64,000 nt of DNA from Halocatena salina (GTDB lineage Archaea > Halobacteriota > Halobacteria > Halobacteriales > Haloarculaceae): positions 496,001-560,000 of the forward strand of contig NZ_CP096019.1 in the NCBI RefSeq assembly GCF_023115355.1, read 5' to 3'. The position numbers and the translations under genes were made by a program. Below, one piece after another: positions 47,938 to 64,000 of this stretch (position 1 is its first letter; each line of letters opens with the position of its first letter). The notes beneath the pieces were generated by a model, which saw nothing but the letters and a program-made list of their open reading frames with translations, did not search any database and was not told the origin of the DNA.

Positions 47938-48408
47938 CTAGTCTTCACCTTCATGAACGTCAACCACGAGGACGGGAACGGTCGTCGTCCGAAGAGTCCG
48001 CTCGGCGACGCTACCCAGCAGGACACGTTTGACACCGCCGCGGCCAGCCGATCCCATCACGATGAGATCGACGCCGTGATCCTCGGCGTACCCGTCGATT
48101 CGATCGTGGGGCTGCCCGGCAGCGACCGCTTCCGTTACCTCGAGCCCATACTGGACGGCTTGCTCGGCGACCGCACCGGTCGCCTGGTTAGCTCGGTCCT
48201 GAATCTCGGACATCTCGTCGTACTGACCCTGCCTAATTCGATCGACCTGCTCGGTGCCGAGGCTGATGTCCATCGCGCTGGTGTCGATGACATACAGCGC
48301 GTGGACGTCCGCATCGTACATTTCAGCGAGATTGAGCGCGTGATTGACAGCACCCTCTGCGACGGCGCTACCGTCGGTCGGAACGAGTATCGTGTCGTAC
48401 ACCGTCAT
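47938..48408 (-). CDS. Universal stress protein (UspA family)
   Basis: 156 residues from ATG 48408. The start YDTILVPTDGSAVAEGAVNH and the ATP-binding G-x2-G-x9-G-S/T motif (VMGSAGRGGVKRVLLGSVAE) are typical. The ATG overlaps the stop of the symporter gene by 4 bp, so it is translationally coupled to an acetate-type transporter. Usp proteins placed with transporters in haloarchaea are thought to modulate their activity; that is inference here. Confidence 0.9.
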   Translation of the reverse strand: MTVYDTILVPTDGSAVAEGAVNHALNLAEMYDADVHALYVIDTSAMDISLGTEQVDRIRQGQYDEMSEIQDRANQATGAVAEQAVQYGLEVTEAVAAGQPHDRIDGYAEDHGVDLIVMGSAGRGGVKRVLLGSVAERTLRTTTVPVLVVDVHEGED

Positions 48409-50078
48409 CGACCCTCCGTAGTCCCGCCATCGGTAGCGACATCTTCGGCGGTTTCCATCTGACTCATCGGTTCTGGACTGTGACACTGGCGGACGAGACG
48501 CTTGATGTCCTCGGGCGGATTGTCAGTCACCATCGAGACGGCGATAATCACGGCGAAGACGATCGGGACACCGACGAGCGCTGAGGAAGTTCCGGGAAGC
48601 CAGGTCGCAAGTCCCGGAAGAAGGGCATCTTCGACACCAGTGTACATCGGAATCACGGTATCGTTTATGATCGCACCGAACGAGATGATGATTCCCGCAA
48701 TCATCCCGGCGAGGGCACCTTCTCTCGTCGTGTTCTCCCACCAGAGCCCGAGGAAGAACACCGGGAAGAAGATGCAACCGGCGATCGCGAACGCCATCGC
48801 AACGAGTTCACCGATCAGTGCGGGAGGATTGAGGCCAACGACGGTCACGAGGATGCCGATCCCGATGATCGTTCCCCGGCCGACGATCATCTGCTCGCGC
48901 TGTGTCGCGTTGTCCTTATAGAGATTCGTGTAAATGTCGTGGGCGGCTGCCGACGAGGCGGTGACGAACAGTCCCGCTGTCGTCGCGAGTGCGGCCGAAA
49001 CCGCGCCTGCAGCAACGAGGCCAACAAGCCATTCCGGAAGACCCGCAAGCTGAGCCGTCAGTAGAACGATCGCGTCGGACTCCGATCCGGCCATCCCCAT
49101 GAAGCCCGTACCGTCGCTGACCTCACGGTTGTAGAGGAGGCCACCGAAGGCAGCGTAGGTTGCCGTCCCCCAGTAGAGGAGGCAAATAGAGAACAGTCCC
49201 CAGACGGTCGACCAGCGAGCGGTTCGTTCATTGTCGACCGTGTAGAAGCGCACGAGCACGTGCGGGAGACCACAGGTCCCGACGATCAGGCTGAAGGCCA
49301 GTGCGGTCCATGCGAAGTAGCCCGCGTTCGCGAACGGTTCGACGAACTGCGCCTCAATGCTGGCGGCCTCGGCGACTTGCGGACCCGCCTCCAGATACGG
49401 CACGGCGATCGACCACCCCTCGGCCCAACCGGTCGCATAAAGACCGATCGTAAACGCGAGGATGAGGATGATGTACTGAATCGCCATGTTCTTGGTCGTG
49501 CCAAGCATCCCGGAAAGGGCGACGTAGCCGATGGTGACTGCCATCAGCAGGATGACGCCAACCTCATAGGAGACGCCGAAGATGTACTGGCCCATCAGAC
49601 CCATACCGCTGGCCTGACCGACCGCGTAGACGAACGCGATCGCGAGCGTGGTGAACGCCGCGATACCGCGCGCCCAGTCGGAGTAAAACCGGTCACCGAC
49701 GAAGTCGGGGGCGGTGTACTTCCCGAAGCGGCGGAACTGCGCGGCCATGAAGATCAGCAAAATGAAATATCCCGTGGTCCAGCCGACGACGTACGCAAGT
49801 CCGAAGTAGCCAGCAGTCGCGATCAGGCCAGCGACACCGAGATACGACGCGGCACTCATCCAGTTAGCGCCGATCGCCATCCCGTTCTCGATCGAACCGA
49901 TCGACCGACCTGCGACCCACAGTTCGTCGACTGCGGCGACACGGAAAAGGTACCCGACGCCGAGGAACAGCCCCAGCATGGAAATAACCGTCAGTGCCGG
50001 GAGCAGTTTGAACTCACCGACGTCTAACGCGGTTCCCTGCAAAATAACTGGGTCGATCGTCGCAATGGCCTCCATCAT
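48405..50078 (-). CDS. Sodium:solute symporter, acetate-permease (ActP/VC_2705) type
   Basis: 557 residues with about 13 membrane helices. SSF-family features include ELWVAGRSIGSIENGMAIGANWMSA near the N terminus and GLPHVLVRFYTVDNERTARWS. It should import acetate or a similar monocarboxylate with Na+. The upstream DUF4212 gene overlaps it by 4 bp (ATGA), the downstream uspA also by 4 bp, and acs lies just upstream; together they form an acetate-uptake and activation operon. Exact solute is inferred. Confidence 0.9.
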   Translation of the reverse strand: MMEAIATIDPVILQGTALDVGEFKLLPALTVISMLGLFLGVGYLFRVAAVDELWVAGRSIGSIENGMAIGANWMSAASYLGVAGLIATAGYFGLAYVVGWTTGYFILLIFMAAQFRRFGKYTAPDFVGDRFYSDWARGIAAFTTLAIAFVYAVGQASGMGLMGQYIFGVSYEVGVILLMAVTIGYVALSGMLGTTKNMAIQYIILILAFTIGLYATGWAEGWSIAVPYLEAGPQVAEAASIEAQFVEPFANAGYFAWTALAFSLIVGTCGLPHVLVRFYTVDNERTARWSTVWGLFSICLLYWGTATYAAFGGLLYNREVSDGTGFMGMAGSESDAIVLLTAQLAGLPEWLVGLVAAGAVSAALATTAGLFVTASSAAAHDIYTNLYKDNATQREQMIVGRGTIIGIGILVTVVGLNPPALIGELVAMAFAIAGCIFFPVFFLGLWWENTTREGALAGMIAGIIISFGAIINDTVIPMYTGVEDALLPGLATWLPGTSSALVGVPIVFAVIIAVSMVTDNPPEDIKRLVRQCHSPEPMSQMETAEDVATDGGTTEGR

Positions 50079-50494
50079 TCGCCCTCACCCCCGTCAGCGG
50101 CAACGCCATTGGCTTGTGCCTCCTCAGTGTCGTGAGAGATGCCGTACTTGCTGTCGAGTCGGTCCCGCTGCATCGCGTAGGCGACCGACAGTAACAGCGC
50201 CGCAAGCGGTGTGAAGACCGCCGTCAGAAAGAAGTGTAACGGGAATCCGCCGAAAACCGTGATTCCCGTCATCGTGTCGGGGGCGAGCAGCGTCGCCGTC
50301 GTCGGCCCAAAGACGACGATGACCCACGCGATGAACGAAATCCCGATCACCCGCAGGTGATCCCGCATGAACGGGGTCGCCGGTTTGAAGATGTTTATTT
50401 CCTTATCGAGGTACGTTTCCGTCACAACGCCGCCGTCCGTCTCAACGGCCGTACTCTCGGTCAACTCAGTGTCGTGATTGGTGTTATCTGTCAT
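50075..50494 (-). CDS. DUF4212 small subunit of the sodium/solute symporter
   Basis: 139 residues from ATG 50494. Two membrane helices (VIGISFIAWVIVVFGPTTAT and FPLHFFLTAVFTPLAALLLS) with a DKEINIFKPATPFMRDHLRV lead-in match the DUF4212 'putative solute:sodium symporter small subunit'. It is always found before a VC_2705-type symporter, as here. A longer frame upstream to 50827 overlaps acs and is a shadow. The N-terminal ~30 residues are acidic and halophile-like. Confidence 0.85.
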   Translation of the reverse strand: MTDNTNHDTELTESTAVETDGGVVTETYLDKEINIFKPATPFMRDHLRVIGISFIAWVIVVFGPTTATLLAPDTMTGITVFGGFPLHFFLTAVFTPLAALLLSVAYAMQRDRLDSKYGISHDTEEAQANGVAADGGEGE

Positions 50495-50552
50495 GGGTGC
50501 TGTGATGTGAATCGTTTTTCGTGGTTTTTGTAATCGAAATAATATTCGAGGG

Positions 50553-52532
50553 TTAGTTGTCGGTGACCTTCTGTTGGATATCGCTGACGACATTCGGGTT
50601 TCGCAGCGTGCTTGTGGTGCCCAGCTCGTCGTCGTTAGCGATATCTTCGAGCAGTCGACGCATGATCTTCCCTGACCGGGTTTTCGGGAGTTCGGGCGTG
50701 AACACGACCTCCTCAGGGCGGGCGATGGGACCAATCGCCTCCTCGACGCTCGCAACGATCGCGTCGTGGAGGTCATCGCTTTCCTCATACTCATCTTCGG
50801 TGATAACGTAGGCGTATACGGATTCACCTTTCAGCTCGTGGGAGCCACCGACGACGGCGGCTTCCGCGATGCCCTCGACGCCGACGATCGCGCTTTCGAT
50901 TTCCATCGTTCCGAGCCGGTGGCCCGAGACGTTGATCACGTCGTCGACCCGTCCGAGAACGGTGATGTAACCATCGTCGTCGACTTTCGCGCCGTCCTCC
51001 GGGAAGTACACCCAGTCGTCGGGATCGTCCGAATCGGTGTCAGAGTACTCAGACCAGTACTCTTCGACGAATCGCTCGTCGTTTTGGTACAGCGTCCGGA
51101 GCATGCCGGGCCACGGCTTCTGGATGGTGAGATAGCCAGCCCGTCCATTGTCGACCGGATCACCCTCGCTGTCGAGGAGTTGTGCGTCGAGACCCGGCAA
51201 TGGCGGTCCTGCTGAACCAGGTTTCATGTTTCCGACGCCGGGCAGCGTCGTCACCATCATCCCACCAGTTTCGGTCTGCCACCACGTATCGACGACCGGA
51301 CAGTCTTCATCGCCGATGTGAGTGTAGTACCACTTCCACGCGCGGGGATTGATCGGCTCACCGACGGTACCCAACAGCCGGAGGCTCGAAAGATCGTGCT
51401 CGTCGGGATACTCCGTGCCCCATTTCATGAATGCCCGGATGGCGGTGGGAGCGGTGTACAGTTGAGTAACGTCGTACTCCTCGACGATCTCCCATATCCG
51501 ATCTTTCTCAGGGTAGTCGGGGGTGCCCTCGTACATGACGGTCGTGGTGCCGAGCGCGAGCGGACCGTACACGATGTAGGAGTGGCCGGTAATCCAGCCG
51601 ATGTCAGCCGAACACCAGTAGGTGTCTTCGGGTTTGATGTCGAGTACGGCTTGGGCGGTCCACGCGACCCACGCGAGATAGCCCCCTGTGGTGTGTTTGA
51701 CGCCTTTTGGCTTGCCCGTGGTGCCGGAGGTGTACATCAAAAACAGCATGTCTTCGGCGTCCCGATCGACGGGAGCTACGGTGGCTCCCGCTTGTTCGGC
51801 GACCAGTTCGTCGTAATCGTGGTCGCGCTCTCTCATCGGGTGGTCGTACTCCTCACCGAGACGGTCCACGACGATCCCCGTTACGTCGTGGTCGACGCCG
51901 GACACGCCTTCGTCAGCTTTCTCCTTGTGTTCGAGCGCGTCACCACGCCGGTAGTAGCCGTCACACGTGATGAGATACTCCGAATCGGCGCTGTTCATCC
52001 GGGTCGTCAGTGCTTCGGCCGAAAAGCCCGCGAAGACGACCGAGTGGGGCGCACCGATGCGCGCACACGCCAGCATGGCGATCGGTAGCTCCGGCACCAT
52101 CGGCATGTACAGCGTGACGACGTCGTCTTCCTCGACACCGAGCTCCCTGAGTGTGGCAGCCACTTCGTTGACCTCTCGGTGAAGTTCTGAGTAGGTGTAG
52201 CGCCGCGTCTCGCCCAGTTCACCGATCCACTCGATGGCGACCTCCTCACCCCGCTCGTCGAGATGCCGATCGAGACAGTTCTGGGAGGCGTTGAGTTCTC
52301 CCCCAGTGAACCATTCGTAAAACGGTGGATTCGAATCATCGAGGGTCGTCTCGTAGTCGCTCGACCAATCGATGAGTTCGGCCGCTGCGTTCCAACATTC
52401 GGGCCAGTTCTCCTCGAACCGCTCGTAGATCGACTCATCTGAGACGTTCGCCTGCTCGACGAACGACTCAGGAGGAGCGAACTCGTCTTGTTCGGCCAGT
52501 CGTGCCTCCAATTCTCCAGTATCATCCGCCAT
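50553..52532 (-). CDS. acs: Acetyl-CoA synthetase (AMP-forming)
   Basis: 659 residues from ATG 52532; ATG 52556 is an alternative. Core adenylate-forming motifs are intact: YTSGTTGKPKGVKHTTGG (A3), DTWWQTETGG (A5), GRVDDVINVSGHRLGT (A8) and KTRSGKIMRRLL with the acetylatable catalytic Lys. It activates acetate to acetyl-CoA with ATP. It heads the acetate operon, 58 bp from the DUF4212 gene. A regulator gene lies just beyond its start and a diverged second copy beyond that. Confidence 0.95.
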   Translation of the reverse strand: MADDTGELEARLAEQDEFAPPESFVEQANVSDESIYERFEENWPECWNAAAELIDWSSDYETTLDDSNPPFYEWFTGGELNASQNCLDRHLDERGEEVAIEWIGELGETRRYTYSELHREVNEVAATLRELGVEEDDVVTLYMPMVPELPIAMLACARIGAPHSVVFAGFSAEALTTRMNSADSEYLITCDGYYRRGDALEHKEKADEGVSGVDHDVTGIVVDRLGEEYDHPMRERDHDYDELVAEQAGATVAPVDRDAEDMLFLMYTSGTTGKPKGVKHTTGGYLAWVAWTAQAVLDIKPEDTYWCSADIGWITGHSYIVYGPLALGTTTVMYEGTPDYPEKDRIWEIVEEYDVTQLYTAPTAIRAFMKWGTEYPDEHDLSSLRLLGTVGEPINPRAWKWYYTHIGDEDCPVVDTWWQTETGGMMVTTLPGVGNMKPGSAGPPLPGLDAQLLDSEGDPVDNGRAGYLTIQKPWPGMLRTLYQNDERFVEEYWSEYSDTDSDDPDDWVYFPEDGAKVDDDGYITVLGRVDDVINVSGHRLGTMEIESAIVGVEGIAEAAVVGGSHELKGESVYAYVITEDEYEESDDLHDAIVASVEEAIGPIARPEEVVFTPELPKTRSGKIMRRLLEDIANDDELGTTSTLRNPNVVSDIQQKVTDN

Positions 52533-52720
52533 GGATGACTCCACGTCATTAACCATCGACCATAAACGACCCCGCTAATTATCACAACTCGGCTGTGTGG
52601 TGGACCAGATCGAAAACAACTATCACAGTGTGTCTCACGGGTTTATTCTCCCACAGGGACACGAACCGTCTGAAACCGGTTGGATAGCGCCTAGATAGTT
52701 AGGTTCGACACCGGGGCGAG

Positions 52721-54358
52721 TCACGCGTCTTCGATGATGGCACGAAGGAGCTTCTGCTGTGCGATTCGGAGGTGGTGGTGGAGCGTCGGGGAGGAAACGC
52801 CAAGCGAATCGGCCAGTTCCTCAGCCGTCGAATCACGGGGCCATTCGAAGTACCCGCCGAAGTACGCCGAGCGGAGCACCGCCGCCTGACGGTCGGTAAG
52901 CGTCTCCACCAACCCCGTATCGGTCGTGACCGTTCGTTCGCCCTGTCGTTTTGCTTTTAAATATACGCCGGGAAACGAGTCGGTGAGCCGTTCGACAACG
53001 CCGCGGACGTCAGTATCAGTCGAAACTTCCCCAACCAGTTGTCCACGCTTGGGATCGACGGTGTACGACCGAACGCGACCGCCGGTTGCCGTGAACGTTC
53101 GTATCGGTGAACGCCGAAGCGTCAGTTCGAGCAAACACTCAGTGTTGTTCTCTCCAACGAACCGACTGTTTACTACCGCATCGGTAGTATCCGTCCGGTC
53201 GAACACCGCGTCGGGGGTGGTGTCGCGAGCGACGACGTAACACAGTATCCCTTCCTCGACTGGAACGACTCCGTTCAGCTCGAACGTACACGAAAGCGCC
53301 ACTGCGGTGGCCGGAAGGGGAGCATCTTTCGAATCGACGCCGAACGTCAGTTCGGTCACGGTATCGGCGAGCAGCCGTCGCTTTCGCTCGACTGCGGCCA
53401 GCGCGTGGCCGACCTGCGCACCCAATACTGTGAGAAGATCGCGTTCACCGGCACCGAATCCGTCCGGCTCCGTCCCGATACCGAGCAGCCCGCGAGGGGT
53501 TTCTCCACCGACGAGTGGAACCGCGATCAGGGTGGCTGTCGGCGTGTCCTTCACTCTGACCGCTTGCGCTTCGATCGCCGATGCCATGAGTTCCGGATGA
53601 TCGGACACCAATCGATCGATCATCTCGCGCTCGGCGCCAGCATGGGCCTGTGTGACCAGTCCGTCACCAGTCGTCTCGGCGGCCCACGCGAAGCGATACC
53701 CCTCCGTTTCGGCCAGTCTGGCGCATACGGCGTCGTGGATCTCCGAAGGAGCAGTGGCCGCCGCGAGCGCATCACCAACGTCCGCCGCAACCGACAGGGT
53801 TCGGTGGAGCTGTGTGGGCTGTTCCATCGGCTGGTGTTCGTTGGCGAACGTCGCCGCGATCTGCTCACGATCCGGGCGTTCGACGTACGGTTCCAGCGCG
53901 GACAGCCGATCGTACGCGGTGACGGCGAGGACGACCTGTGGATCGATTCCCTCGCGAAGCAGCCCCATCGCGTGAGTAGCCCGCAGTTCTCGGGTCGACA
54001 CCTCCCGAAAGCGATCATCGCCAGTCGCAGTCGAAGCCCTGTTTCCACACTCTTTGACGATCATCTGTATCCGTCGTTCAGAAACCGAAAACAGTGTTCT
54101 TTCAGCACCGTTCGATCGAGCGTACTTCTCGAAGGCGTGGGCAACCGCTGTTGGCAAAGCCGCTTCTCGATCTCCAATGTCGAGAAATCGCGTCCCATCG
54201 ACAGTTACGATGTCGTCCCGTCGTACTTCCACCACCTCGCTAGGCCGAAGTCCGACCTCTCCACACAGCCGAACGATGAGATCGCTCCGGTGGGTGCGCG
54301 TCGCCCGACGAAGACGATCGTATCCACCCTCACAGAGAAACCGAACTATCTCGGCCAT
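52721..54358 (-). CDS. Bat-type regulator: integrase-like domain + GAF + HTH_10
   Basis: 545 residues from ATG 54358; the frame continues to 54685 but overlaps acs2. Residues ~1-175 resemble a tyrosine-recombinase catalytic domain: GLRPSEVVEVRRDDI supplies the first Arg, STRELRATHAMGLLREGIDP the second, and ALEPYVERPD the Tyr, while the usual histidines are replaced. A GAF-like domain (~195-345, with FAWAAETTGDGLV, LIAVPLVGGETPRGLLGIG) follows. The C-terminal LTDRQAAVLRSAYFGGYFEW to LHHHLRIAQQKLL is HTH_10, as in the bacterio-opsin activator. It lies between the two acs genes and probably controls them. Confidence 0.8.
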   Translation of the reverse strand: MAEIVRFLCEGGYDRLRRATRTHRSDLIVRLCGEVGLRPSEVVEVRRDDIVTVDGTRFLDIGDREAALPTAVAHAFEKYARSNGAERTLFSVSERRIQMIVKECGNRASTATGDDRFREVSTRELRATHAMGLLREGIDPQVVLAVTAYDRLSALEPYVERPDREQIAATFANEHQPMEQPTQLHRTLSVAADVGDALAAATAPSEIHDAVCARLAETEGYRFAWAAETTGDGLVTQAHAGAEREMIDRLVSDHPELMASAIEAQAVRVKDTPTATLIAVPLVGGETPRGLLGIGTEPDGFGAGERDLLTVLGAQVGHALAAVERKRRLLADTVTELTFGVDSKDAPLPATAVALSCTFELNGVVPVEEGILCYVVARDTTPDAVFDRTDTTDAVVNSRFVGENNTECLLELTLRRSPIRTFTATGGRVRSYTVDPKRGQLVGEVSTDTDVRGVVERLTDSFPGVYLKAKRQGERTVTTDTGLVETLTDRQAAVLRSAYFGGYFEWPRDSTAEELADSLGVSSPTLHHHLRIAQQKLLRAIIEDA

Positions 54359-54467
54359 GTTTCGGATATAGCTAATAGAACGAAATAGTAATTCCGGAAT
54401 AGGGGCAGTAACGACTGTAAAGAATAAAATCACTCCGAGAAGAAGATCGAATCCGTTTCGGAATTCG

Positions 54468-56405
54468 CTACGTTTCCGAATCGTCGTGGCGTTCGAGTTC
54501 GCCGACGATCTCCGGATTCCGAAGCGCGCTAGTGTCGCCGTACTCCCGACCGGTGGCGATCGCAACGAGCATTCGACGCATGATCTTTCCCGACCGGGTT
54601 TTCGGAAGATCGGGTGTAAACACGATCTGGTCGAACGTGAGTTCCGGCCCAAATGTGTCCTCGACGGCATCACGCACCGCATCACGGAGCGGATCGATAT
54701 CCGTTCTGAGTGTCGGACTGACGTAAGCGTGAACGGCGGTCGTCAGCGGACGGTCGATACCGATGACGGCCGCTTCAGCGACGCCGTCGACTGAGACGAT
54801 CGCTCGTTCGATCTCGGTGGTCCCGATCCGCTGGCCATCGACAGTGAGACCGTCGTCGACTCGGCCCAGTAGGGTGATGTAACCGTCCTCATCCATCACA
54901 GCTTCGTCGCCCGGTAGATACATCCACTCCTCGCCCGCAGCGCTACGCCCCCACTCCGATGCGTCCGCGAGTTCGCGGGCCATCCCAGGCCACGGTGTCC
55001 GGATTGCGAGCAGCCCTCGCTCACCCGGTGGAAGTTCCTGCCGATCACTGTCGACGACCGCAGCTTCGACGCCGGGTAACGATGGTCCCGCTGAACCGGG
55101 TTTCATCACGTCGATCCCCGGCAGCGTCGAGACCAGAATTCCACCAGTTTCGGTCTGCCACCACGTATCGACGACTGGACAGTCTTCATCGCCGACGTGA
55201 GTGTAATACCACTCCCACGTGGAGGGATCAATGGGTTTTCCTACGGTGCCCAACAGCCGGAGGCTCGAAAGATCGTGCTCGTCGGGAGACGCCTCATCAC
55301 CCTTCATGAACGATCGGATGGCCGTCGGTGTCGTGTACAACACGTCGACAGCGTTGCGTTCGACGATCGACCAGATGCGGTCTGGATCGGGATGGTCGGG
55401 GGTGCCCTCGTACATGACGGTCGTGGTACCGAGCGCGAGCGGACCGTACACGACGTAGGAATGGCCGGTAATCCAGCCGATGTCTGCGGTGCACCAGTAG
55501 GTGTCTTCCGGAGTGATATCGAGTACGTCCTGTGCAGTCACTGCGACGTGAGCGAGATAACCGCCTGTAGTGTGGGTAACGCGTTTCGGTTCGCCGGTCG
55601 TACCTGACGTGTACAGCTGAAACAGAACGTCGTCCGTCCGACGGATGATAGGCTCGACAGTAGCTCCAGCGTACTCGGTAAGCAACGAATCGTAGCTGTG
55701 TTGGTTTTCACCGAGCGACGGCTCGCCGAGCCGTTCGACGACCACGGTGTCGTGGAGTTCGTGATCGAGAGCCATCCGAGCGTTGTCCGCTCGACGCTTC
55801 TGGTTGATCGCATCACCCCGACGGTAGTAACCATCACACGTGATGAGACACGCCGAATCCGCCCGATCCATCCGGGCAGCAAGCGCGTCTGCGGATAGCC
55901 CGGCAAACACGACGTTATGAGGCGCACCGAGGCGGGCACACGCCAGCATCGACGCGACCAGTTCGGGCAGTACTGGCATATAAAGAGTGACGACATCACC
56001 GGTTTCGACGCCGAGATCTCGGAGTGCCCCGGCGATCGCATTTACTTCCCGATAGAGATCTAGATACGTGTAGCTCCGCGTCTCTCCTAACTCACCTTCC
56101 CACCGGAGGGCGAGCCGGTTTTTCCGCGCGTCGAGATGACGATCGAGACACTCATAGCAGGCGTTGAGCCGACCGCCAGTGTACCAATCGAACGGGGGAT
56201 CATCCCCTGCTCGAACCGACTCGTAGGATTCGTACCAATCGAGTACGTCGGTTGCCCTATCCCACGACGTATCGGCCGTTTGGGATCGGAAGTCCCGATT
56301 CACACGGTTTGCCTGCTCGCGGAACGACACCGGCGGCTCGACCGAATCGTCGGCCTCCATCGGTGTGTCGATAGGCCGTACCGCCGGAAAAGGATTGGCC
56401 TCCAT
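54468..56405 (-). CDS. Second acetyl-CoA-synthetase-like protein (AMP-forming)
   Basis: 645 residues from ATG 56405; ATG 56360 (630 residues) is equally possible, and the two starts sit in a short direct duplication (both TPMEA). It follows the Acs pattern through DTWWQTETGG, GRVDDGLTVDGQRIGT and KTRSGKIMRRML with the catalytic Lys. The A3 loop reads YTSGTTGEPKRVTHTTGG, with Arg in place of the usual Gly after PK. Parts are nearly identical in DNA to the first acs 4 kb away. It may use another short acid or act as a regulated paralogue. Confidence 0.88.
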   Translation of the reverse strand: MEANPFPAVRPIDTPMEADDSVEPPVSFREQANRVNRDFRSQTADTSWDRATDVLDWYESYESVRAGDDPPFDWYTGGRLNACYECLDRHLDARKNRLALRWEGELGETRSYTYLDLYREVNAIAGALRDLGVETGDVVTLYMPVLPELVASMLACARLGAPHNVVFAGLSADALAARMDRADSACLITCDGYYRRGDAINQKRRADNARMALDHELHDTVVVERLGEPSLGENQHSYDSLLTEYAGATVEPIIRRTDDVLFQLYTSGTTGEPKRVTHTTGGYLAHVAVTAQDVLDITPEDTYWCTADIGWITGHSYVVYGPLALGTTTVMYEGTPDHPDPDRIWSIVERNAVDVLYTTPTAIRSFMKGDEASPDEHDLSSLRLLGTVGKPIDPSTWEWYYTHVGDEDCPVVDTWWQTETGGILVSTLPGIDVMKPGSAGPSLPGVEAAVVDSDRQELPPGERGLLAIRTPWPGMARELADASEWGRSAAGEEWMYLPGDEAVMDEDGYITLLGRVDDGLTVDGQRIGTTEIERAIVSVDGVAEAAVIGIDRPLTTAVHAYVSPTLRTDIDPLRDAVRDAVEDTFGPELTFDQIVFTPDLPKTRSGKIMRRMLVAIATGREYGDTSALRNPEIVGELERHDDSET

Positions 56406-56424
56406 CGGTGTCCCGGCCGGTAAT

Positions 56425-57393
56425 TCACCGGAAAGAGATGGCGTCGAATCGGGATGCGATGATCGGAACGAACGAACGCCGCTGGATGCAGACGAACCCG
56501 GCGAGAATCGTGAAAAAACCACACGCCGTGAGCGGATCGATCAGATCACCCAACAACAACCATGAGAGAACCGTAGCCGAGACCGGTTCGAGGTACCCGA
56601 TGAGATTGATCTGTGTCGGACCGATCCGATCGAGCAGTTCGAAATACAGAAGAAACGCCCCCGCACCAGTGACGATTCCGAGGTACACGAGGGAGATGCC
56701 AGCAATCGGTGTCCACTGAATCGCTGCCAGTGATTCGCCGCGAACGAGACCAGCGACGAACAGCAACGCTGAGCCGATGAGCATCGCCCACGCTTGTACC
56801 GTCCGAGGCGGAAGCGACGTCTCGATAGGTTGAGTCAACACCGCTCCAAGCGCGAAGCAGACGGCACCGAGAAACACCGTCGCAACGCCGATCCCATCTC
56901 CTGTCAACAGCGCGCCCGGGTCCAAGGCCAAAAATCGCACAGCTAACGACTGCCCGACACCCTCGGGCACGCCCGGTTGGGCGACGAAAAACACGCCCAG
57001 AAATCCGAGGGCAAATCCGACGAAATCCATCGACGTCACCTGATTGTCAAGCAGTCCAGCCGCGAACAACGCTGTTAACACTGGACCCAGGCTGACGATC
57101 ACCGCTGCGATCGGACCACTGACGTGTTGTTGACCGAGATACAGAAACGCGTGGTGGCCACCGATGAGAAAGCTCCCAGCGATTCCGGCGACTAACCACT
57201 CCCTGTGGGAGCGGGGATACCACTGTGGTGTCGAATACCAGGCGTAACCGAGCACGACGACGCCCGCGATGAGATACCGCAGTGCTGCGAACTCGATCGG
57301 TGGAAAATATCCCAGCCCGATATCGATCGCCACAAACGAACTTCCCCACAGCGTACCGAGAAGCAAAAATGCCCCGACCAGCTGTCGTCTCAT
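56425..57393 (-). CDS. EamA-domain (DMT superfamily) transporter
   Basis: 322 residues with ten hydrophobic helices in two EamA repeats: LLLGTLWGSSFVAIDIGLGY opens the first and GAVCFALGAVLTQPIE the second. The end YLEPVSATVLSWLLLGDLID is the conserved last-helix motif. Members export amino acids or other metabolites; the substrate is unknown. It lies 19 bp upstream of acs2 on the same strand and may be cotranscribed. Confidence 0.88.
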   Translation of the reverse strand: MRRQLVGAFLLLGTLWGSSFVAIDIGLGYFPPIEFAALRYLIAGVVVLGYAWYSTPQWYPRSHREWLVAGIAGSFLIGGHHAFLYLGQQHVSGPIAAVIVSLGPVLTALFAAGLLDNQVTSMDFVGFALGFLGVFFVAQPGVPEGVGQSLAVRFLALDPGALLTGDGIGVATVFLGAVCFALGAVLTQPIETSLPPRTVQAWAMLIGSALLFVAGLVRGESLAAIQWTPIAGISLVYLGIVTGAGAFLLYFELLDRIGPTQINLIGYLEPVSATVLSWLLLGDLIDPLTACGFFTILAGFVCIQRRSFVPIIASRFDAISFR

Positions 57394-62977: not shown

Positions 62978-63535
62978 ATGAGAAGTATGCCAACGCAACC
63001 ATACGATCGGTCCGAGGAAGAATCAGATAGAAATCACGAGCACAACCATCACCACCACGATGTAGAAGATCCCGGCGTGGCCGTTCTGACCGTGTCCTCC
63101 TCGCGGTCAGTCGACGACGATCCATCCGGTGACGCGATCGAAACCGCGCTCAATGATGCCGACTACCGCGTTGTCGAGCGCGAGAGTGTCGGTGACGACT
63201 ACGACGCGATCCGATCGCGCGTTGAATCCTACACGACCGACGAGCGTGTCGATGCCGTCGTCACGACCGGTGGGACGGGAGTAACTCCTGATGACGTGAC
63301 CGTCGAAGCAGTTTCGTCGCTGTTCACGAAGGATCTGCCTGGGTTTGGTGAACTGTTTCGACGGCGCTCTGCCGATGAGATCGGAACGCGTGTCATCGGA
63401 ACGCGTGCCACTGCGGGTGTCGTGGCTGAGATGCCAGTGTTCTGCTTACCGGGAAGCGAAAACGCTGCGCAGTTGGGTGTTTCTGAGATCATCATCTCCG
63501 AACTACCCCACCTCATTGGTCTCGCACAGCGGTAA
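62978..63535 (+). CDS. moaB: MoaB/MogA-family molybdenum cofactor protein
   Basis: 185 residues from ATG 62978; ATG 62987 is an alternative, and the frame upstream overlaps the divergent dehydrogenase gene. An N-terminal His-rich stretch (NHEHNHHHHD) precedes the conserved VAVLTVSSSRSVDDDPSGD. TTGGTGVTPDDVTVEA is the molybdopterin-binding signature and FRRRSADEIGTRVIGTRATAG follows. The family adenylylates molybdopterin. The 102-bp gap to the divergent gene should hold both promoters. Confidence 0.9.
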   Translation: MRSMPTQPYDRSEEESDRNHEHNHHHHDVEDPGVAVLTVSSSRSVDDDPSGDAIETALNDADYRVVERESVGDDYDAIRSRVESYTTDERVDAVVTTGGTGVTPDDVTVEAVSSLFTKDLPGFGELFRRRSADEIGTRVIGTRATAGVVAEMPVFCLPGSENAAQLGVSEIIISELPHLIGLAQR

Positions 63536-63685: not shown

Positions 63686-63700
63686 GTATTTTCGTCTGTT
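63686..63700 (+). repeat. Origin-like repeat, degenerate copy R0
   Basis: GTATTTTCGTCTGTT matches the right part of the 19-bp unit but lacks one base in the GTACGTTT part. Confidence 0.45.
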
Positions 63701-63712
63701 TCGAGCACACAG

Positions 63713-63731
63713 ACAGTACGTTTCGTCTGTT
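63713..63731 (+). repeat. Origin-like repeat, copy R1
   Basis: ACAGTACGTTTCGTCTGTT, identical to R2 over 19 bp. Confidence 0.8.
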
Positions 63732-63762
63732 CCCAGAGGGATCAGACCCGGGGAGGTGGGGG

Positions 63763-63786
63763 GACACACAGTACGTTTCGTCTGTT
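63763..63786 (+). repeat. Origin-like repeat, copy R2 (24 bp shared with inverted R4)
   Basis: The 19-bp unit (63768-63786) preceded by GACAC. All 24 bases recur inverted at 63957-63980. A G-rich run (GGGAGGTGGGGGG) is directly upstream. Confidence 0.8.
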
Positions 63787-63846
63787 CTTCCTCGAAGAGA
63801 TCCCCCCCTCCTGCTTCACGACCTGCCTCGTTCGCGGGTTGGACCC

Positions 63847-63865
63847 ACGGTACGTTTCGTCTGTT
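63847..63865 (+). repeat. Origin-like repeat, copy R3
   Basis: The 19-bp unit with one change (ACGGTACG for ACAGTACG). Confidence 0.8.
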
Positions 63866-63940
63866 CTGTCGAACCTCTCTATAGTGATTGAATCTTTCGA
63901 TAGCAGCAATAAGATCCCCATACATCCGAAACGGAGTGGA

Positions 63941-63960
63941 TGTTTTCTAGCTAGAAAACA
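63941..63960. repeat. Perfect 20-bp palindrome
   Basis: TGTTTTCTAG and CTAGAAAACA are perfect reverse complements with no spacer. The right arm overlaps repeat R4 by 4 bp. Confidence 0.8.
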
Positions 63961-63980
63961 GACGAAACGTACTGTGTGTC
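63957..63980 (-). repeat. Origin-like repeat, inverted copy R4
   Basis: On the minus strand this reads GACACACAGTACG followed by TTTCGTCTGTT, identical to R2 for 24 bp. It faces the direct copies R1-R3 and leaves ~90 bp between R3 and R4. Confidence 0.8.
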
Positions 63981-64000
63981 TTCTACTTAAAGAGTGAGAA

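Follow-up and report, generated by a model that had tools for sequence, protein, structure and literature searches.

Archaeal Orc1/Cdc6 initiators bind origin boxes of the kind described below through their winged helix and initiator-specific motif, and during initiation MCM is loaded at an A+T-rich element. We know of no studies of replication in the genus Halocatena, on whose chromosome the present analysis would place a second, genus-conserved origin. For haloarchaea in general, a correspondence of one initiator to one box type was proposed (PMC3528665) and shown genetically in Haloarcula hispanica, where each origin depends on its neighbouring cdc6 gene (PMC3936714). The boxes themselves are described as ending in the so-called G-string, a halophile-specific feature used as a filter in origin prediction (PMC3528665, PMC4595724) and essential at oriC1 of H. 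hispanica (PMC3936714).

The window considered here is a stretch of 64,000 nucleotides of the Halocatena chromosome (C1:496001-560000), and close to its end lies a cluster of 19-bp repeats that a preliminary description had likened to a replication origin. This reading is supported, because an orc1/cdc6 gene follows 70 bp beyond the window, the boxes are unique, and the pairing of boxes and gene is kept in relatives. Judging from sequence anatomy, the repeats and the gene very likely constitute a second chromosomal replication origin, i.e., a replicator-initiator pair of the oriC2 type. The features of the locus are as follows.

62978-63535, plus strand: upstream neighbour, a MogA/MoaB-like molybdopterin-binding domain protein (Pfam PF00994, E 1.6e-28)
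63686-63703, plus strand: R0, degenerate half-box (TTTTCGTCTGTTTCG), five mismatches to the 19-mer
63713-63731, plus strand: R1, candidate origin recognition box, exact ACAGTACGTTTCGTCTGTT
63768-63786, plus strand: R2, candidate origin recognition box, exact ACAGTACGTTTCGTCTGTT
63847-63865, plus strand: R3, candidate origin recognition box with one change (ACGG...)
63866-63956, no strand: putative unwinding element between the facing R3 and R4, 91 bp, 58% A+T
63957-63975, minus strand: R4, inverted candidate origin recognition box, exact 19-mer
63986-64000, no strand: beginning of a conserved block on the promoter side (ACTTAAA ... AGAACACACGAAACAGACGAAC), which continues beyond the window
64007-64022 (C1:560007-560022), minus strand: R5, degenerate inverted box (AAACAGACGAACGGTA), 7 bp beyond the window end
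64070-65269 (C1:560070-561269), plus strand: orc1/cdc6 gene, 399 aa, 70 bp beyond the window end

The three direct and one inverted 19-bp repeats that had been described are present at the positions listed and lie far above chance, as only 0.01 matches are expected at up to three mismatches and four were found, a number that none of 100 dinucleotide-preserving shuffles of the 64-kb window reached. Equally real is the 24-bp stretch reported as common to 63763-63786 and the inverted copy, which has 100% identity (L030:1764-1787 against 1958-1981), and the degenerate copy claimed at 63686 does exist but is weak; R0-like copies also occur in the two nearest relatives (L045, L046). The layout consists of four units running one way, including the degenerate R0, the 91-bp spacer, two units running the opposite way, including the degenerate R5, and then the gene. 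At least two repeated boxes in opposition are therefore found, in the form of three direct and one inverted near-exact copies and two degenerate ones.

In the whole genome (4,012,255 bases in five contigs), the 19-mer is found nowhere else at up to one mismatch, rather than being scattered over promoters, and the other orc genes have other boxes, so that the boxes are specific to their own initiator gene. The next-best match carries two mismatches and lies on contig C4, where it is isolated and without repeats, and it was rejected as another box site. Downstream of orc, no copies of the 19-mer were found at up to five mismatches (L044), and the viral collection contained no box carriers. The open literature, searched for this sequence apart from published box logos and supplementary lists, yielded no relevant paper.

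The preliminary description had named as its own main test the presence of orc1/cdc6 beyond position 64000, and this test was passed. The intergenic region adjoins a gene longer than 300 aa that encodes AAA+ and winged-helix domains. Its product scores above the NCBIfam TIGR02928 cut-off, carries the Pfam domains Cdc6 lid (PF22703) and winged helix (PF09079), and aligns over nearly its full length with two archaeal Orc1 chains of solved structure, 2qby_A (E 2e-56) and 2v1u_A. By domain content and alignment, the gene product is an Orc1/Cdc6 initiator, made up of an AAA+ ATPase plus a winged helix.

The R3-R4 spacer, at 58% A+T in a 12-kb neighbourhood of 44%, qualifies as an A+T-rich element. 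It ranks with the less stable of the 60-bp windows in these 12 kb, the start of the orc gene being equally weak, and it encloses a GCAATA stretch that is conserved among the relatives compared. The strongest conservation is that of a block at the orc promoter, comprising R4, the ACTTAAA element and R5 directly before the gene, which runs on past the window through R5 into the orc1/cdc6 gene.

Among the named relatives, Halocatena pleomorpha is the nearest, with 98% Orc identity, and the others, namely YIM A00010, 'Actinarchaeum halophilum', YIM A00013 and H. marina, have 86-95%. The box cluster precedes the orthologous orc in all five, and the distance from the R4-equivalent facing box to the orc start codon is constant (111-113 bp), with the number of far-side boxes ranging from two to nine; H. 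pleomorpha has, in addition, a box copy downstream of orc. Four of the five relatives share the order zinc-type oxidoreductase, mogA, boxes, orc and FAH-type hydrolase, and the MogA-like gene is outside the origin and marks this conserved gene order. H. marina carries the pair on a 388-kb contig, and two more of its records have it on plasmids of 360-365 kb. The H. marina array (L103:3088-3554, NZ_JALLPK010000004.1) has nine box copies with a strict 56-bp spacing on one side plus one facing copy, an iteron-like expansion that perhaps followed transfer to a plasmid.

Two further observations concern the surroundings of the locus. Downstream of orc, a block of ~340 bp (L030:3713-4054; C1:561712-562053) has 78-87% identity in four relatives and seems to contain a short ORF (MEERSRTRTDGRYENYGRFETREGLLVVYEHDNPN...). 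Within the window, the region 48405-56522, judged by eye from translations, holds a sodium:solute symporter-like gene (48405-50078) adjoining acetyl-CoA-synthetase-like genes (50553-52556 and 54468-56522), which flank a regulator-like gene (52721-54685).

From this anatomy and its conservation, we infer binding, unwinding, firing and autoregulation in the following manner. The Orc initiator would bind the facing arrays of 19-24 bp boxes, with R0-R3 on one side and R4-R5 on the other, and, once bound, would open or prime the A+T-rich 91 bp that separate R3 from R4, where MCM would then be loaded. Binding at R4/R5 would also limit the synthesis of the initiator by repressing orc. The pair thus probably autoregulates its orc gene, because the inverted boxes R4 and R5 sit in the orc promoter region, and the conserved R4-ACTTAAA-R5 block before the gene likewise suggests repression by the bound initiator. 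Against an origin stand the missing G-string, which published predictions demand of boxes in haloarchaea (PMC3528665), the dormancy of some orc-adjacent haloarchaeal origins (PMC4595724), and GC skew, which has no inflection in the 400 kb around the site, although none is found around the canonical oriC1 either.

That oriC1 lies on the same chromosome at C1:1,506,187-1,506,500, 0.95 Mb distant and beside another orc gene, with canonical facing boxes (TTCCAGTTGAAACGAAGGGGTGGGGGGG) at C1:1,506,187 and 1,506,488. The present locus was rejected as the haloarchaeal oriC1, since the canonical box TTCCAGTxGAAACGAAGGGGTGG of that universally conserved locus is absent here and oriC1 is at C1:1,506 kb. 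No repeat array accompanies two more orc-like genes of the chromosome, at C1:630 kb and 1,469 kb; with boxes at only two chromosomal orc loci, the chromosome therefore has two origin candidates, 0.95 Mb apart. Several orc genes on the other contigs carry their own, different repeat families.

The origin candidates on C2-C5 (L035, L036, L037, L039, L040, L041) have distinct box families, such as CACACCACTGTTTCAAGTGAA (C3:14 kb), CACACATCGATAGAGGGGTGTG (C4:7 kb), CCACTATTGCCAGTAA (C5:162 kb), CACCCCTTCGGTTCCGTCGTTA (C5:18 kb) and ACACAGCGGTTTTCCTGAGTTATT (C2:267 kb), and several of the genome's other families seem, by eye, to be G-string-free. There are also broken orc1/cdc6 remnants, L042 (C3:213127-213656) and L043 (C3:286867-287226), one of them split with an in-frame TAG and one a C-terminal fragment.

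As for the activity of the locus, we lean towards an origin that fires in normal growth, and otherwise one that is dormant. A true origin that stays silent in normal growth and serves as a backup to oriC1 is a sub-case of the same explanation, and a rather unlikely one: an oriC1 with canonical boxes does exist 0.95 Mb away, and orc-adjacent precedents are documented in Haloferax mediterranei (PMC4595724), but the gene order conserved in four relatives is the pattern of active Haloferax origins, the dormant Haloferax origin having been found in a variable context and the active ones in conserved gene order (PMC4595724). It is very improbable that the repeats are nothing but an operator through which Orc or another regulator controls orc, and perhaps mogA, with no start of replication. 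R4 and R5 do lie in the orc promoter region, where the most conserved block sits; however, up to four boxes placed far upstream face the inverted ones across an A+T-rich spacer, in relatives the orc gene often has boxes on either side, and the ten upstream copies in Halocatena marina (388-kb contig) are unneeded for a simple operator. The multi-site operator that the preliminary description gave as its alternative is thus retained in part, as autoregulation is likely too, but it does not exclude an origin. Finally, it is scarcely credible that the chromosome recently acquired this origin by integration from a plasmid, a view that can draw on the H. marina orthologue on 360-365 kb plasmids in two records and on the related orc genes found on many haloarchaeal plasmids. 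Synteny largely refutes it, as the same chromosomal neighbours occur in four relatives; moreover, Orc identity within the genus is 86-98%, the genus is one clade in the Orc tree, and in H. marina it is the plasmid position that seems derived.

Regarding the proposed second chromosomal origin as a member of a larger group, related boxes are found across haloarchaea beside orc genes of 57-65% protein identity, usually in facing orientation with the orc gene between them, and next to orc genes at 43-48% identity neither of the box classes described here was found. The boxes fall into two classes with a common inner half: a G-string class, GAACAGACGAAACG-AGGGGTGTG, in Halorubrum and relatives, and a second class, RRCASACGAAACG-TACTSTSTC, in Halocatena and a large set of haloarchaea that spans Halobacterium, Haloferax, Haloarcula, Halococcus, Natronomonas and Natrialbaceae. 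When mapped on a maximum-likelihood tree built from 66 proteins, the box class requires two changes (one is also possible) against 13 for shuffled labels, and since so few changes are needed, box type and Orc lineage go together. Both box classes (GAGGGG and TACTCT types) were also seen near one orc in Halorubrum and relatives (L110, L112, L115, L117, L139, L147, L150), which recalls the two-box-type origins of Halorubrum lacusprofundi and Haloquadratum walsbyi (PMC3528665).

In the Halocatena box, the outer half is GTACTSTGTG in place of GAGGGGTGTG; the box ends in GAAACGTACTGTGTG, and none of the four copies has a G-run there. The G-runs by the repeats, put forward earlier as an origin-box feature, are not the haloarchaeal G-string, as in box orientation C's follow R2 and neither C's nor G's follow the other copies. 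Moreover, the flanks of 177 wider-family boxes, which were chosen by their TACTS half, contain no G-run and have a CTCTCWCTC-like tail instead. In the initiators, residues 121, 122, 128 and 132, which fall where the alignment places the initiator-specific motif, and the winged-helix residues 355, 361, 374 and 376 separate the two box classes within the family, a contrast that is confounded with descent. Residue 122 is T in 16 of 16 G-string members and K or R in the remaining 35, but it was rejected as determining the G-string in general, because this genome also has T in other Orc families, with boxes that seem G-string-free.

We tentatively propose that a large haloarchaeal origin family may work without the G-string, and that within one Orc family the inner half CAGACGAAACG stayed fixed and the outer half was switched between G-string and TACTSTSTG, with residues 121, 122, 128, 355 and 376 of the DNA-contacting initiator-specific motif and winged helix of Orc changing too. 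If this is true, such origins would escape genome-wide predictions in which the G-string serves as a filter. In addition, the ~60%-identical sister Orcs, whose boxes have the same inner and different outer halves, provide a natural experiment on the role of the G-string, and the contrast among Halocatena, Halorubrum and Haloferax could reveal which Orc residues read each box half.

Among the known systems, the Halocatena pair can be compared with oriC2-cdc6E of Haloarcula hispanica (PMC3936714), which it resembles in its layout as a candidate second chromosomal origin beside oriC1 and in the gene-specific boxes upstream of its own cdc6 gene. The H. hispanica locus differs in that Cdc6E is titrated there by 11 boxes arrayed downstream (PMC3936714); at the Halocatena locus no such downstream box-rich titration region was found at up to five mismatches, and the copies are upstream only. 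As at haloarchaeal oriC1 (orc7/cdc6A type), a separate locus, facing boxes enclose an A+T-rich stretch upstream of orc in the Halocatena pair, and the core CAG..GAAACG is common to the Halocatena box and the oriC1 box of the same chromosome, whereas the box ends in GAAGGGGTGGGGGGG at oriC1 and in GTACTGTGTG, without G-string, here. One sister family, with boxes AAGAACAGACGAAACGAGGGGTGTG and 62-65% Orc identity, occurs in Halorubrum and relatives; it is alike in the left half AACAGACGAAACG and in boxes on both sides of orc, and differs in having a G-string as the right half, against TACTGTGTG here. The other, with boxes RRCASACGAAACGTACTCTCTC and 57-61% Orc identity, is spread over Halobacterium, Haloferax, Haloarcula, Natrialbaceae and others; oriCa, a published family with an active member at Halobacterium orc10 (PMC3528665), may belong to it. 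This second sister family has the same kind of box with no G-string, and its inverted boxes usually lie directly downstream of orc, whereas in the Halocatena group the facing boxes lie upstream.
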